From: a virus
Reading direction: 5' to 3' (one strand)
DNA length: 41,682 nt
IMG/VR virus record: IMGVR_UViG_3300021960_000172
Location: 1-41,682 of that record
Shown: positions 2,026-28,325 of the stretch, piece by piece
Numbering within the stretch: position 1 is the stretch's first letter
How the letters are laid out: each line of letters begins with the position of its first letter
The notes under the pieces: generated by a model
Seen by the model: only the letters and a program-made list of their open reading frames with translations
Database searches by the model: none
What the model was told of the DNA's origin: nothing
Position numbers and translations under genes: made by a program

Positions 2026-2606
2026 TTTACGTCAAGGAGGACCGAGCAGTAGATGTTGGTGCCGTTGCTAACGCCGCTGATGATGTCCACCGCAGCCGCC
2101 GTGGTGGTCAGCGTGGGGGCGGTGCCGCCCGGGAACTTGAACACCGAGTTGAAGGACAGGGTGCGGCTACCCGCGCCGTCCTGCGTGATGCGCCAGATGT
2201 AGGTAGCGCCAGCCGCCAGATTGGTAGGAGCACCAAGCGCACGATTGCCACCCAGCGTCACGGTGAAGACGTTGCCCAGTGAGCAGTCCGTGGCGATGGT
2301 GGCGGCGTCAGTAATGGCCGTCTCGCCCTTGTTGAGGCCGGCCCGGGCCAACACCGCCGTAGCGGCAGCGGTTCCGCCCTGGGCAATGGCCAGCGGCGTG
2401 TTGAGCCCGCCGGTCAGGGTAGTCACGCCAGTCACCTCCATGGTGCCTGCGCTCTTGACGCCCGCCGTGCTGATCTGGAGCGCACTGTCATTGCCCAAGC
2501 CGTCAGTGACGGCCTTGAGCGACCCACCCACCGGCCCGTTGTCCGTGACCTTGAGCAGGGCGTCGTAGGAACTGGCGACGGTTACGCCGGTAAGTGTGGT
2601 GCCCAT
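2022..2606 (-). CDS. Tail fibre-like protein (194 aa)
   Basis: The sequence is Ser/Thr/Gly/Ala-rich and beta-rich. It has an AIAQGGTAAATA segment near residue 75, a short motif common in phage tail-fibre shafts where a fibre turns into its distal domain. The C-terminus (SGVSNGTNIYCSVLLDVK) resembles the ends of many small fibre proteins. It lies directly before the glycine-rich adhesin gene and overlaps it by 4 bases, suggesting that the two form one fibre: shaft or adaptor plus tip. Assignment by composition and context only. Confidence 0.6.
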   Translation of the reverse strand: MGTTLTGVTVASSYDALLKVTDNGPVGGSLKAVTDGLGNDSALQISTAGVKSAGTMEVTGVTTLTGGLNTPLAIAQGGTAAATAVLARAGLNKGETAITDAATIATDCSLGNVFTVTLGGNRALGAPTNLAAGATYIWRITQDGAGSRTLSFNSVFKFPGGTAPTLTTTAAAVDIISGVSNGTNIYCSVLLDVK

Positions 2607-2610
2607 GGGA

Positions 2611-2883
2611 TTAGGCGTTCAGCTGGCCCTTGTAGGCGAGAACGCTGCCGGAGCTGAGGGTGAAGGCCGTGATCTGGCCATAAATCCAGCTGCCCGCCGG
2701 GAAGGTAACGCTGGTGAGCGTGCCCGTGCTGCCGGCAATGGTAAGGGCGCTGAAGGCGGTCGATGTGACCATGTTGAGGGCCATCCAGGGGCCGGCAGCG
2801 CCAGAGCTGGTGCCGCTGACGTACTCGACGCCAAAATGCCCCATGCTGACTTCCGCGATGTAGTTGCTGTTACGTGAACTCAT
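2611..2883 (-). CDS. Small virion-associated protein, unknown (90 aa)
   Basis: Unrecognised. The protein begins MSSRNSNYIAEVSMGHFGVEY and is beta-rich with many Ser/Thr/Gly and small hydrophobic residues. It contains a VTFPAGSWIYGQITAFTLSSG stretch of the kind found in small phage proteins that sit on heads or tail fibres. It is packed 4 bases from the fibre gene and 1 base from the next upstream gene in the same operon. A role in the virion surface or fibre attachment is inferred from position. Confidence 0.55.
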   Translation of the reverse strand: MSSRNSNYIAEVSMGHFGVEYVSGTSSGAAGPWMALNMVTSTAFSALTIAGSTGTLTSVTFPAGSWIYGQITAFTLSSGSVLAYKGQLNA

Positions 2884-2884
2884 G

Positions 2885-3091
2885 TTATTGATTCCAGATT
2901 TTCTGTATGCCGGCTTTCCGGCCGTTGATCCTATCGCCCCGTGCCTCGCAGCGCCGGTAGCCCTCCATTATCTTTTGTGAGAAATTCATGCCGACCAGGC
3001 TGGGGGTGCCCCGGAACGGCGGTTTGTCGGCTATCTTGACGAAAGCCCTGGCCACCTTGTCCCATGCGTAGGAGCCGGTAGCACCTGCCAT
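2885..3091 (-). CDS. Small basic protein, unknown (68 aa)
   Basis: The ATG at 3091 shares a base with the stop of the upstream gene (TGATG), which favours it over the GTG one codon earlier. The protein (MAGATGSYAWDKVARAFVK...) is rich in Lys and Arg, ends AGIQKIWNQ and has no recognisable domain. It lies in the head/tail operon between the KOW-like capsid-associated gene and the fibre genes. Probably a minor structural or assembly factor; not assignable further. Confidence 0.55.
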   Translation of the reverse strand: MAGATGSYAWDKVARAFVKIADKPPFRGTPSLVGMNFSQKIMEGYRRCEARGDRINGRKAGIQKIWNQ

Positions 3092-3351
3092 CACATGTCC
3101 TCCCCCGATTCCTTCATCATGGCCGCCTTGACGGATTCCTCCGTGGGCTCCATGTCCATTTCCTTCTCCTCATGGTCGCCGCACTCGCAGCCACCAACGG
3201 ACTTAACCTTGACCGTCACGTTGTCGCCATCAATGGCAACGACCGTGCCGACCACATCGGTGATGTTGACCTGATCGCCAACACCGGGAGCAACGGCCTC
3301 GCCGTCCTCCGACATGTCCTCCAACGCCTTGACCGGAAAACTGATTTTCAT
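3091..3351 (-). CDS. Small capsid-associated protein with KOW/SH3-like segment (86 aa)
   Basis: The N-terminal half reads as a small beta-barrel: GVGDQVNITDVVGTVVAIDG followed by DNVTVKVKSV, a GDxV...GTVxxIxGDxVTV pattern seen in KOW/SH3-like folds. A CECGDHEEKE segment (two Cys, one His) follows, then an acidic Met/Glu-rich tail. Proteins of this kind often sit just after N4-gp56-type capsid genes in phage operons, so capsid decoration or stabilisation is a fair inference. The two Cys and nearby His could bind metal, which is unproven. Confidence 0.55.
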   Translation of the reverse strand: MKISFPVKALEDMSEDGEAVAPGVGDQVNITDVVGTVVAIDGDNVTVKVKSVGGCECGDHEEKEMDMEPTEESVKAAMMKESGEDM

Positions 3352-3372
3352 AGTAATGGGATTGTGCCCAGA

Positions 3373-3400
3373 GTGACCCCACCCGGCAGGGCAGGGTCAC
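3373..3400 (-). terminator. Hairpin just after the major capsid gene
   Basis: A 7-bp perfect inverted repeat (GTGACCC at 3373-3379, GGGTCAC at 3394-3400) lies in the 64-base gap between the capsid gene stop and the next gene. There is no clear T-run on the minus strand. It is more likely a partial terminator or mRNA-stabilising hairpin that raises capsid output over downstream genes than a full stop. Confidence 0.4.
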
Positions 3401-3415
3401 GAGGGAACTACCCTA

Positions 3416-4504
3416 TTACAGGGTGTGGGCGGTCTTCGTCATGTGCCGAACGTAGAAGTTCGGGTTCAGGCGAAGCGCGGTGAAGTAGATCTTCGCCGCA
3501 ACCACGATGTTCTGGTTGAACGCATCCGACTTGTCGGCCTTGTCGAGAACCTCGACCGCCGGGCTGAACGGGCTGTCACCAGCAATGTGGGGAACGCCGA
3601 TGGCGTCACGGCCCAGCATGAAGGACGAGATAACGTCCTTGCCGGTGCCGGTGCCGCCGCCGCCAGAAACCGCATAGATGTTGCGGTCAGCAGCCGTGGC
3701 CGAACCCAGCGACACGAACGAGTTGGTCTGCTCAACGATGCGGACACCGTAGAGGGAGCCGACCTCGCCCTTGTAAAGGGCCTGGACATTGCTATACTTG
3801 GCGGCATCGAGCCAGTCCGTGTCACGCTTGAGGTCGCGGGTAACGCGAGGATCGGTGACATAGACGTAACCACCGCTGTCAAACTCAGGAGCGATGTTGC
3901 GCTTGAGCTTGGTGGCGAGATCGAGGATGGACGCGGAGTCCAGCACCGAGGTCGTGGTGGCCGAGTTCAGGCCGGTGTAGCTCTGGGTCGTGCCAGCGGG
4001 CTGGCCATAGACCTCAAGGATGGTGTCCGAGTTGTCGAGCGAACCGCCGCCCTCGGTGGCCGAACCGATGGAGCCGTTGGAGGCCGTCAGGTTGGAACCG
4101 GCGAGGACGTTGCGGATCACGGAGTCAGACCAGAGGCCCAAGTCCTGACCGGCACGCTTGGTGGCTTCCTTGGTCGAGCTGAAAAGCTCGGTAGCCTTCA
4201 TAATGTCCGTCATCGTGTAACGCTGGCCGTACTGGGCCAGAGCCTTCGTGATGCTGGACAGCGAGAGCTGGGCGGAAGTCGAGGAAGCCGGGATCGTGCC
4301 TTCCGTGAGGGCCTGGACATCAGTGATGGCCGGATTGCCCCAACGGAACATGGTGATCGACTTGTTGCCGCCATTCTTCGGAATGGGGGCCTTGGTGGCG
4401 AACTGGTCGAGCTTGCGAATCTGCTCGATGTTCTGGAGAAGCTGCTTGGAGAAAAGCGCCCGGAATTGACCGGACAGCGTAGAGGAGGTTGTAACACCAG
4501 CCAT
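3416..4504 (-). CDS. Major capsid protein, N4-gp56 family (362 aa)
   Basis: This forms the icosahedral shell (HK97 fold). The N-terminus has the family layout: a start with small polar residues, a helix (FSKQLLQNIEQIRKLDQF), then a basic KNGGNKSITMFRW strand, an ALTEGTIPAS loop and ALAQYGQRYTMTDI. These are close to the conserved KxxK...F.R, LTEG.TP and L.QYG.Y..iTD blocks of N4-gp56-like capsid proteins. Length is normal for the family. It follows the scaffold gene and is followed by a hairpin, the usual setting for a highly expressed gene. A long antisense frame (3425-4516) is a GC-driven shadow. Confidence 0.88.
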   Translation of the reverse strand: MAGVTTSSTLSGQFRALFSKQLLQNIEQIRKLDQFATKAPIPKNGGNKSITMFRWGNPAITDVQALTEGTIPASSTSAQLSLSSITKALAQYGQRYTMTDIMKATELFSSTKEATKRAGQDLGLWSDSVIRNVLAGSNLTASNGSIGSATEGGGSLDNSDTILEVYGQPAGTTQSYTGLNSATTTSVLDSASILDLATKLKRNIAPEFDSGGYVYVTDPRVTRDLKRDTDWLDAAKYSNVQALYKGEVGSLYGVRIVEQTNSFVSLGSATAADRNIYAVSGGGGTGTGKDVISSFMLGRDAIGVPHIAGDSPFSPAVEVLDKADKSDAFNQNIVVAAKIYFTALRLNPNFYVRHMTKTAHTL

Positions 4505-26103: not shown

Positions 26104-26808
26104 ATGACAACAGCCAAGGCTTACTATCAGGATTCCGCCGTGACTCTTTACCACGGGGATTGCCTGGACCTGATGAACGAGATCCCGGATGGCTCTGTGG
26201 ATATGGTGCTGTGCGATTTGCCGTATGGTGAAGTGTCCCAAAAAAGCGGGGGGCTGCGCCTGCTAGACCGTGGAAACGCCGACAGGTGCGACCTCGATGT
26301 TTCCGCTGTAGTCACCCGGCTTAACCGCTTGTGCACCGGCTCCTTTTATCTGTTTTGCGGAACCGAGCAGATAAGCCCCATAGTCTCCGCGTTCAGGTCA
26401 TTTGGTCTCACAACCCGGCTTGGAGCATGGGAGAAAACCAACCCCAGCCCAATGAACGGAACTCGGCTATGGATTAGCGGGCTAGAGTTCTGCGTGTTCG
26501 CCAGAAAGGCTAACGCCGTTTTTAACGAGCACTGCAAAAAGGCTCTGTGGCAAGCGCCGTCCGGTATGTCCAAATTGCATCCCACTCAAAAGCCGGTCGG
26601 ACTCATGGAGCGCCTTATACTCGCGTCAACAAATGCGGGCGGGATTGTCCTGGATGCCACCATGGGCAGCGGGACAACCGGCGTGGCCTGCGTGAATACC
26701 GGCCGGCGATTCATCGGAATCGAGCGCGACGAGCAGTATTGCAGCATCGCCGCAAAACGCATTTCCGCAGCCGCCAAGCCTGCTACTGCTGAACTTCAAC
26801 TAGTGTAA
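26104..26808 (+). CDS. DNA N6-adenine / N4-cytosine methyltransferase (234 aa)
   Basis: Motif IV is DLPYG at residues 38-42 (a variant of DPPY), the HPTQKP box stands at 159-164 and the SAM-binding motif I DATMGSGTT at 184-192: the beta-class order. It uses S-adenosylmethionine to methylate phage DNA, probably to escape host restriction. The TACACTATG at the start leaves hardly any leader, so translation may be leaderless. DLPY instead of DPPY is a common substitution in phage enzymes and should still be active. Confidence 0.88.
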   Translation: MTTAKAYYQDSAVTLYHGDCLDLMNEIPDGSVDMVLCDLPYGEVSQKSGGLRLLDRGNADRCDLDVSAVVTRLNRLCTGSFYLFCGTEQISPIVSAFRSFGLTTRLGAWEKTNPSPMNGTRLWISGLEFCVFARKANAVFNEHCKKALWQAPSGMSKLHPTQKPVGLMERLILASTNAGGIVLDATMGSGTTGVACVNTGRRFIGIERDEQYCSIAAKRISAAAKPATAELQLV

Positions 26809-26823
26809 ACCCGTAGCCACACA

Positions 26824-27126
26824 ATGCTAACCCCCGACACCATCTTCACCGCCATCGAATCCGTCTTCCCCGTGACCCGGGCGGACATCATTGGCCTCCG
26901 CCGCCGCCGCAACGAGGCCGATGCCCGTAAGGTGGCCTGCTACATCATTTATACCTACATGCGATACAGCAACGCGCAGATCGCCGCCCTCCTTGGCAAC
27001 CGCTCGTCCGGTTCGGTCAAGGACTGCCGCGATGGCTACCTTAACATGCACAAAACCGACAAGCAATTCAGGGCCATGGCCGATCAGGTCATTGCGATCC
27101 TGGGCCTCAACGTAATGGCGGCGTAA
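26824..27126 (+). CDS. Free-standing DnaA domain IV-like DNA-binding protein (100 aa)
   Basis: The sequence RADIIGLRRRRNEADARKVACYIIYTYMRYS followed by NAQIAALLGNRSSGSVKDC follows the pattern of the DnaA C-terminal domain (helix with basic R-rich turn, then the HTH with GxR.xSxV). The ATPase domains of DnaA are absent, so this is not a full initiator. It could bind DnaA-box-like sequences to guide replication, or compete with host DnaA. The leader motif GTAAACCCGTAGCCACACAATG precedes it. Confidence 0.75.
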   Translation: MLTPDTIFTAIESVFPVTRADIIGLRRRRNEADARKVACYIIYTYMRYSNAQIAALLGNRSSGSVKDCRDGYLNMHKTDKQFRAMADQVIAILGLNVMAA

Positions 27127-27133
27127 TTCTCAC

Positions 27134-27364
27134 ATGACCACAACGACCCCTCGCCCAACGGCACAGGTAACGATTTTCGACAACCCTGAAACCAATCTGG
27201 CCTCTGAGTATTCCGACCGGGACTATTACATGGCCTGGCTCCAGATGGAGGTGGAGCGGTGGCAGGAGAAGGGCCGGGAGGCATGGATCGAGACGGACAA
27301 GGAGGGCCGGGTGGCACTGTTCACCTGGGCGCACTATATGAAGCCGGTGGAGGGGGAGCAGTAA
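27134..27364 (+). CDS. Small acidic protein, unknown (76 aa)
   Basis: An N-terminal Thr/Pro-rich part (MTTTTPRPTAQVTIFDNPET) and an aromatic, acidic C-terminal helix (DYYMAWLQMEVERWQEKGRE, AHYMKPVEGEQ). Its TAA stop is immediately followed by the alternative ATG and the GTG of the methyltransferase region. No family recognised. Confidence 0.55.
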   Translation: MTTTTPRPTAQVTIFDNPETNLASEYSDRDYYMAWLQMEVERWQEKGREAWIETDKEGRVALFTWAHYMKPVEGEQ

Positions 27365-28317
27365 TGTGGATACTCCCAACACGGTTACACACGTCAGCCT
27401 TTGTGCCGGATACGGCGGCATTGATCTTGGACTCAAGCGAGTCATCCCAAGCCTGCGCACAATCGCTTTTAGTGAGATCGAAGCCTATGCCTGCGCGAAC
27501 CTGGTTGCGAAAATGGAAGCGGGACAGCTGGACGCGGCACCTATCTGGTCGAATCTTAAAAGCTTCCCATGGGGAAAGTTTCACGGACTTGTGGACATCC
27601 TCTCTGGAGGCTACCCTTGCCAGCCGTTCAGTGCAGCCGGAAAGCGCCTTGGCACCGACGACCCCCGCCACCTCTGGCCATGGATCGCAGACGGTATTCG
27701 CGCTATGCGACCAAGACAGTGCTTCCTCGAGAACGTCGAAGGACACATCAGCCTTGGGCTCCGGGATGTCATTGGAGAACTGGAAGGCATCGGTTATCGA
27801 ACAACGTGGGGAGTATTCTCAGCGGCTGAAGTCGGGGCGCCACACCAGCGGAAGCGGGTGTTCATCCTGGCCAACAGCCTCCAGTCGGGACTGGAAGGAC
27901 TCACCGGGAATGGCGTCAACGGGCGTGAACCCGGACGGGACGGAGCGCAGCCGGATCGACCAGTTGCCGAGGGCGGTATATCACTATGGCCGTCCCGCCC
28001 CGGTGAGCCCCAGCACGAATGGGAGCCGCCCAGAACAGTGGCCAACGCCAAGATCATGCAGTGCGATGGCGGCGACGATTACGCCGGAATCGGCCAGCAA
28101 CCCGGATCGCTTCCCGAATCTCGAGACGCAGGTGGGCAAGACCATGGCGGTACCAACGGGCGTCCTCAACCCCGACTGGGTGGAAACCCTGATGGGCGTT
28201 CCGGTGGGCTGGACATCCGTGAACTGGCCCCCCGCGTTGACCGCCTCCGACTCCTTGGCAACGGAGTCGTCCCAGCAGTTGCAGCCCGTGCCTACACCGT
28301 CCTTTCAACCCGCTTAA
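27364..28317 (+). CDS. Overlapping-frame protein across the cytosine methyltransferase gene (317 aa)
   Basis: The ATG at 27364 shares a base with the upstream stop (TAATG), and the frame stays open for 317 codons, shifted relative to the methyltransferase that starts two bases later. The product is not random: it holds SLEATLASRSVQPESAL, TSGHGSQTVFAL, a WxxSVIEQRGEYSQRLKSG block, SSWPTASSRDWKDSPGM, a second QWPTPRS and LNPDWVETLMGVPVGWTSV. I recall this WPTP...LNPxWVExLMGxPxGWT layout from phage proteins found next to Dcm-type genes. Why both frames survive is unknown. It may be translated, or be a persistent shadow of a constrained gene. Confidence 0.5.
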   Translation: MWILPTRLHTSAFVPDTAALILDSSESSQACAQSLLVRSKPMPARTWLRKWKRDSWTRHLSGRILKASHGESFTDLWTSSLEATLASRSVQPESALAPTTPATSGHGSQTVFALCDQDSASSRTSKDTSALGSGMSLENWKASVIEQRGEYSQRLKSGRHTSGSGCSSWPTASSRDWKDSPGMASTGVNPDGTERSRIDQLPRAVYHYGRPAPVSPSTNGSRPEQWPTPRSCSAMAATITPESASNPDRFPNLETQVGKTMAVPTGVLNPDWVETLMGVPVGWTSVNWPPALTASDSLATESSQQLQPVPTPSFQPA

Positions 28318-28325
28318 CCACATGA
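27366..28325 (+). CDS. C5 cytosine DNA methyltransferase (319 aa)
   Basis: All key blocks are present: motif I SLCAGYGGIDLG (11-22), the catalytic GGYPCQPFSAAGKR with Cys85, ENVEG (122-126), the HQRKRVF block (160-166) and the terminal RLRLLGNGVVPAVAARAY. It transfers methyl groups to cytosine, most likely in phage DNA. The start is GTG at 27366, two bases after the upstream stop; an ATG in another frame stands at 27364. The target-recognition part (about 170-285) is Gly/Arg/Pro-rich, and the other frame over it looks coding too. It ends overlapping the next ATG (ATGA). Confidence 0.88.
   Translation: MDTPNTVTHVSLCAGYGGIDLGLKRVIPSLRTIAFSEIEAYACANLVAKMEAGQLDAAPIWSNLKSFPWGKFHGLVDILSGGYPCQPFSAAGKRLGTDDPRHLWPWIADGIRAMRPRQCFLENVEGHISLGLRDVIGELEGIGYRTTWGVFSAAEVGAPHQRKRVFILANSLQSGLEGLTGNGVNGREPGRDGAQPDRPVAEGGISLWPSRPGEPQHEWEPPRTVANAKIMQCDGGDDYAGIGQQPGSLPESRDAGGQDHGGTNGRPQPRLGGNPDGRSGGLDIRELAPRVDRLRLLGNGVVPAVAARAYTVLSTRLTT

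Follow-up and report, generated by a model that had tools for sequence, protein, structure and literature searches.

Two reading frames at one locus

In the window, by which we mean the whole stretch of 41,682 nucleotides that was analysed, a C5 cytosine methyltransferase gene is overlapped along nearly its full length by a second open frame. We refer to the products of frame 1 and frame 2 as alpha and beta.

27366-28325, + strand: alpha (frame 1), C5 cytosine methyltransferase of 319 aa with a GTG start, carrying motifs I-VIII and X
27364-28317, + strand: beta (frame 2), 317 aa with an ATG start, putatively carrying a target-recognition region and a motif-IX-like segment
27349-27368, + strand: shared start region, with GGAGG (27349-27353), the upstream stop TAA (27362-27364), the beta ATG (27364-27366) and the alpha GTG (27366-27368)

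An earlier note on this DNA had located both frames correctly, with the starts at GTG 27366 and ATG 27364, 317 codons in the second frame and a stop 8 nt ahead of that of alpha (28317 vs 28325). It was wrong in having the second product end at LNPDWVETLMGVPVGWTSV, past which there are about 32 more residues.

Behind GGAGG, the string TAATGTG holds the upstream stop, the beta ATG and the alpha GTG in overlap. Among 87 representatives, 82 have the beta ATG 2, 5 or 8 nt 5' of where alpha starts, and in most relatives the two starts are 2-11 nt apart, which suggests that both proteins probably begin at one site. The start pair reads ATGTGGATA in 46 of these representatives and ATGACATGG in 19, and alpha starts with GTG in 50 and with ATG in 37. 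A single ribosome-binding site probably serves both starts; because a recognisable 4-base Shine-Dalgarno match is present in only 36 of the 87, this one-site initiation model is put forward as a suggestion.

Frame 2 is open beyond chance and widespread

The remark in the earlier note that chance rarely gives such a product was borne out by codon shuffles, by loci selected on frame 1 and by Dcm controls. In the window, frame 2 runs for 316 codons within the methyltransferase ORF; when frame 1 was shuffled 300 times among synonymous codons, the mean run was 148 and none was as long as that observed. Across relatives, which are not independent and about half of which were fetched by frame-2 similarity, the longest frame-2 run averages 166 codons in shuffles vs 339 observed; at most one of 300 shuffles attains the observed run in 96 of 141 distinct relatives, and by the same criterion the third frame stands out in none of the 141. 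A further 79 loci (L087-L165) were fetched by frame-1 similarity alone. Frame 2 is open across most or all of the gene in every one of them, and the longest open run in their third frame is mostly 40-130 codons. Frame-2 runs in E. coli Dcm-type controls cover about 80 of 450 codons, or 168 in two GC-rich ones. On these comparisons we take frame 2 to be a true second gene and more than a product of chance.

Genes with this double coding are present in well over a hundred sequences from phages. A tblastn search with frame 2 gave matches in 98 phage records, and in six divergent ones (Paenibacillus phage Diva, Synechococcus, C75C1, Erythrobacter, a cyanophage and Vibrio) frame 2 overlaps a C5 methyltransferase frame with the same offset between the two. 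Two IMG/VR scans yielded about 160 loci. A frame-2 profile was run on 167 loci, and in 164 of them it put the product at +1 relative to the methyltransferase frame. Of the other three, L041 has a broken alpha frame, L080 meets the end of its contig, and in L068 the two are locally in the same frame. None of 80 loci fetched by frame-2 similarity carries frame 2 without traces of the methyltransferase frame. In L068 (IMG/VR, 2449-3510), the methyltransferase frame holds the WATPSSRDWKDSPGMA stretch, and the remainder of the beta-like product is in the other frame; the frames may have been exchanged locally, or the contig may be misassembled.

The earlier note had also mentioned a recurring phage family near Dcm-type genes, and this family proves to be PHROG 1008, whose members overlap C5 methyltransferases. 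Beta matches PHROG 1008 with E=3.1e-15 (aa 73-287 vs 35-282 of 329), a family annotated, like the Diva protein DIVA_50, only as hypothetical protein or "DNA methyltransferase". Searches of frame 2 against Pfam and NCBIfam gave no match, 83 members of the frame-2 family had no meaningful match in Pfam, and a PDB profile search with the frame-2 alignment returned none. Modelled alone with AF2, beta is poorly predicted (pLDDT 58, pTM 0.22), and Foldseek found no fold match for this model in the PDB.

Constraint alternates between the frames

The third codon position of frame 1 serves as the second in frame 2, and the first position of frame 1 as the third in frame 2; whichever position changes most therefore points to the constrained frame. 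A first scan, in alpha coordinates, used 751 non-independent pairs. In these pairs constraint lies mainly on frame 1 at motifs I, IV, VIII and X and mainly on frame 2 at alpha aa 1-12, 25-36, 169-204 and 229-288; at aa 49-72 and 109-156 both frames are apparently constrained. The alternation along the gene holds in a second test on 41 pairs sharing no sequence, with weaker N-terminal frame-2 patches (p=0.023 and 0.035, uncorrected). In the Dcm controls, position 3 lies above position 1 in every segment. The stretches concerned are as follows.

27364-27402, + strand: beta N-terminal patch MWILPTRLHTSAF; frame-2-dominated in 18/24 informative independent pairs (p=0.023, uncorrected); W2, I3, P5 and L8 nearly invariant
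27390-27437, + strand: alpha motif I region HVSLCAGYGGIDLGLK; frame-1-dominated in 24/25 informative pairs over alpha aa 13-24
27615-27632, + strand: alpha motif IV PCQPFS with the catalytic cysteine; frame-1-dominated over aa 73-108 in 34/34 informative pairs
27834-27869, + strand: alpha motif VIII GAPHQRKRVFIL; frame-1-dominated in 23/24 informative pairs
27853-27975, + strand: putative beta recognition region, first part, CSSWPTASSRDWKDSPGMA...; frame-2-dominated in 17/17 informative pairs (alpha aa 169-204)
27987-28034, + strand: alpha element WPSRPGEPQHEWEPPR, conserved within an otherwise beta-constrained region; frame-1 position-3/position-1 ratio 1.4-2.0; 11 vs 4 pairs in the 41-pair test, not significant alone; W219 invariant
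28036-28218, + strand: putative beta recognition region, second part, including the motif-IX-like segment; frame-2-dominated in 32/33 informative pairs (p=8e-9)
28165-28212, + strand: beta motif-IX-like segment LNPDWVETLMGVPVGW, which lies directly N-terminal to motif X in single-frame relatives and in those that join IX and X
28242-28274, + strand: alpha motif X RLRLLGNGVVP; frame-1-dominated in 28/29 informative pairs; R295, G298 and N299 invariant

These patterns bear on the reading in which frame 2 is no gene at all, only a shadow of frame-1 conservation and base composition. Such a shadow does exist locally: over alpha aa 73-108 frame 2 drifts, with 31.6% amino acid change vs 9.3% in frame 1, and the similarity of frame-2 products over motif IV is accounted for by frame 1 alone, the frame-2 motif there mirroring PCQPFS. 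As an account of the whole gene, we consider this reading to have almost no chance of being right, since the relation reverses between motifs VIII and X, where amino acid change is 20-29% in frame 1 and 4-7% in frame 2, and since neither codon shuffles nor Dcm controls reproduce the open frame. In the 41-pair test the figures are 4.2% in frame 2 vs 20.1% in frame 1 at alpha aa 169-204, and 6.6% vs 28.8% in the second part of the recognition region (alpha aa 229-288). The substitution patterns thus indicate purifying selection on both frames, and the dual-frame selection test proposed when the overlap was first noticed comes out positive, with the selection interleaved along the gene.

A catalytic half and a candidate recognition half

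Alpha matches PF00145 with E=1.8e-31 over aa 9-171, including motifs I, IV (PCQ) and VIII. Its AF2 model exceeds pLDDT 90 for most of residues 1-175 and for the C-terminal motif X region, and Foldseek relates it to the HaeIII and HhaI methyltransferases. Over most of residues 185-292, where the small domain should be, the model is disordered. This disorder, together with the weak frame-1 constraint in the same region, points to an alpha without a small domain (recognition domain and motif IX) of its own.

Relatives in which the two frames are joined indicate where the missing part may have gone. In the single-ORF relatives L179, L181 and L178, the frame-2 module (WPTP repeats and LNPxWVExLMGxPxGW) lies in frame after motif VIII. 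Motifs I-VIII, a WPTP-type region, LNPDWVECLMGFPIGW and motif X share one frame in L179 (a Pelosinus MAG) and in L181, an IMG/VR contig whose best segment has 70% identity. L178 (a Myxococcales MAG) has motifs I-VIII, the WPTP region and the LNPxW segment in a single frame up to the contig end, with motif X out of view. Only a few such single-chain forms turned up, one of them, L178, being truncated by the end of its contig. A further six loci (L022, L173, L176, L189, L257 and L262) have motifs I-VIII in one frame and the LNPxW segment together with motif X in the other, the beta frame. Fused into single chains in some relatives and joined to motif X in others, the frame-2 module sits at the place of the recognition domain and motif IX. 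We therefore take beta to be, most probably, the target-recognition part, with a motif-IX-like segment, of a split methyltransferase.

Motif IX itself is assigned by position and pattern, because the profile comparison aligned motif X only: hhalign of the IX/X segment against Dcm was not significant and did not extend to the beta segment. By eye, that segment can be likened to LTPRECARLMGF of Dcm; in E. coli Dcm, LTPRECARLMGF stands shortly before motif X and resembles LNPDWVECLMGF.

Proposed enzyme and alternatives

We propose, with considerable confidence, that the product of this locus is a C5 cytosine DNA methyltransferase of two subunits, decoded from one stretch of DNA in different frames. 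Ribosomes would start at ATG 27364 for beta or at GTG 27366 for alpha, probably by way of one ribosome-binding site. Alpha would supply the catalytic part, beta would bring motif IX and the region for target recognition, and together they would form one enzyme in which beta picks the sequence to be methylated, and methylation would probably shield the phage DNA from host restriction. We infer from sequence that both proteins are expressed, that they form a heterodimer, that beta is needed for activity and that the role is protective. The idea of the earlier note that one stretch of DNA makes two proteins is likewise supported at this level, by a conserved open frame and by selection in both frames.

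That note had left open whether the second protein was a partner or an inhibitor. A separate regulator or inhibitor overprinted on the methyltransferase would fit with frame 2 being encoded only together with the methyltransferase. Still, the constrained frame-2 region replaces the recognition region that alpha lacks, and the same module is found in frame inside single-chain methyltransferases, which speaks for a partner and makes an inhibitor improbable.

We judge equally unlikely a programmed frameshift that would yield one chain, composed of the alpha N-terminus, the beta recognition region and alpha motif X. The existence of single-chain relatives agrees with it, as does the order of constraint, on frame 2 in the recognition region and on frame 1 before and after. 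However, constraint switches between the frames many times, falling on beta also at alpha aa 1-12 and 25-36 and on alpha at 205-228, so that several frameshifts would be needed, and beta has its own conserved start codon.

Under the two-subunit reading, specificity could change by exchange of a single segment. Beta recognition regions are less than 50% identical at the amino acid level in 27 of 44 pairs whose motif I-VIII DNA is at least 90% identical, a pattern that fits module exchange. More broadly, we suggest, as a proposal that could equally prove right or wrong, that a widespread phage lineage has moved between single-chain, split and nearly fully nested forms, that the nested form launches both subunits from two overlapping starts, and that recombination of one DNA segment swaps both frames along with the specificity module. 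Fused, split and nested forms are all extant, which makes it possible to test how an overlapping gene pair arose.

Comparison with known methyltransferases

By motif layout, the nearest known kind is M.EcoHK31I, with whose larger subunit the window's alpha shares motifs I-VIII and X and to whose motif IX subunit beta would correspond. Lee et al. reportedly described M.EcoHK31I in 1995 as two genes with overlapping reading frames. Its beta is shorter and internal. In contrast, the beta of the window spans almost all of alpha and begins before it. M.EcoHK31I (YGGCCR) is a two-polypeptide C5 methyltransferase, with motifs I-VIII and X in the larger subunit and IX in the smaller, and its predicted recognition domain has been placed in the larger subunit (PMC3404938), whereas selection puts the recognition region of the window's enzyme in beta. 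Plasmid searches for an EcoHK31I-like pair returned only distant methyltransferases.

M.AquI (CYCGRG) is also split, the large subunit carrying motifs I-VIII and the small one the distal recognition region, motif IX and also motif X (PMC3404938). With motif X in its small subunit it resembles L173, L176 and L189, where LNPxW and X share one frame; in the window, X stays in alpha. HhaI, HaeIII and Dcm share the alpha-type catalytic domain and have the recognition domain, IX and X all in one chain, and Dcm relatives, unlike the window, have no open second frame.

In Paenibacillus phage Diva, DIVA_50 ("g49 internal gene") belongs to the same beta family and lies in the other frame inside the methyltransferase gene DIVA_49; unlike the window's beta, it begins inside the alpha gene and is without the N-terminal part. 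Records of P. larvae phages (L001, 2269-3321) variously call the second frame a hypothetical protein, an internal gene or a DNA methyltransferase, and HB10c2 names the locus after the BsuMI subunit YdiP. Among open-licence papers, we found none on a phage overlap of this type. New relative to the known split enzymes are the near-complete overlap, the shared start site, the recognition region in beta, the broad occurrence among phages and the gradation that leads from fused to nested forms.

The locus would be a clear example from nature of an enzyme whose two subunits share nearly all of their DNA, with the constrained stretches of each interleaved. It would account for many double annotations of phage genes as "DNA methyltransferase" and "hypothetical protein" (PHROG 1008), and it suggests caution, in that enzymes of this type cloned from frame 1 alone may miss their recognition domain.

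Genomic neighbourhood

The neighbouring genes belong to replication and DNA metabolism: a Holliday junction resolvase, an N6/N4 methyltransferase, a DnaA C-terminal domain and DnaB. None of the eight neighbours tested matched a restriction endonuclease family, and an orphan protective methyltransferase is therefore likely. The N6/N4-type DNA methyltransferase lies just upstream (26104-26808; PF01555, 3.8e-26; PHROG 67), so that the phage has two methyltransferases of different chemistry. Between the two, 26824-27126 encodes a 100-aa protein that is little beyond a DnaA C-terminal DNA-binding domain (Bac_DnaA_C, 1.7e-9). Downstream, the C-terminal part of the product of 28322-28861 matches the N-terminal domain of dATP/dGTP diphosphohydrolase (PF18909, 5.9e-11), and its first ~80 residues lie outside this match.
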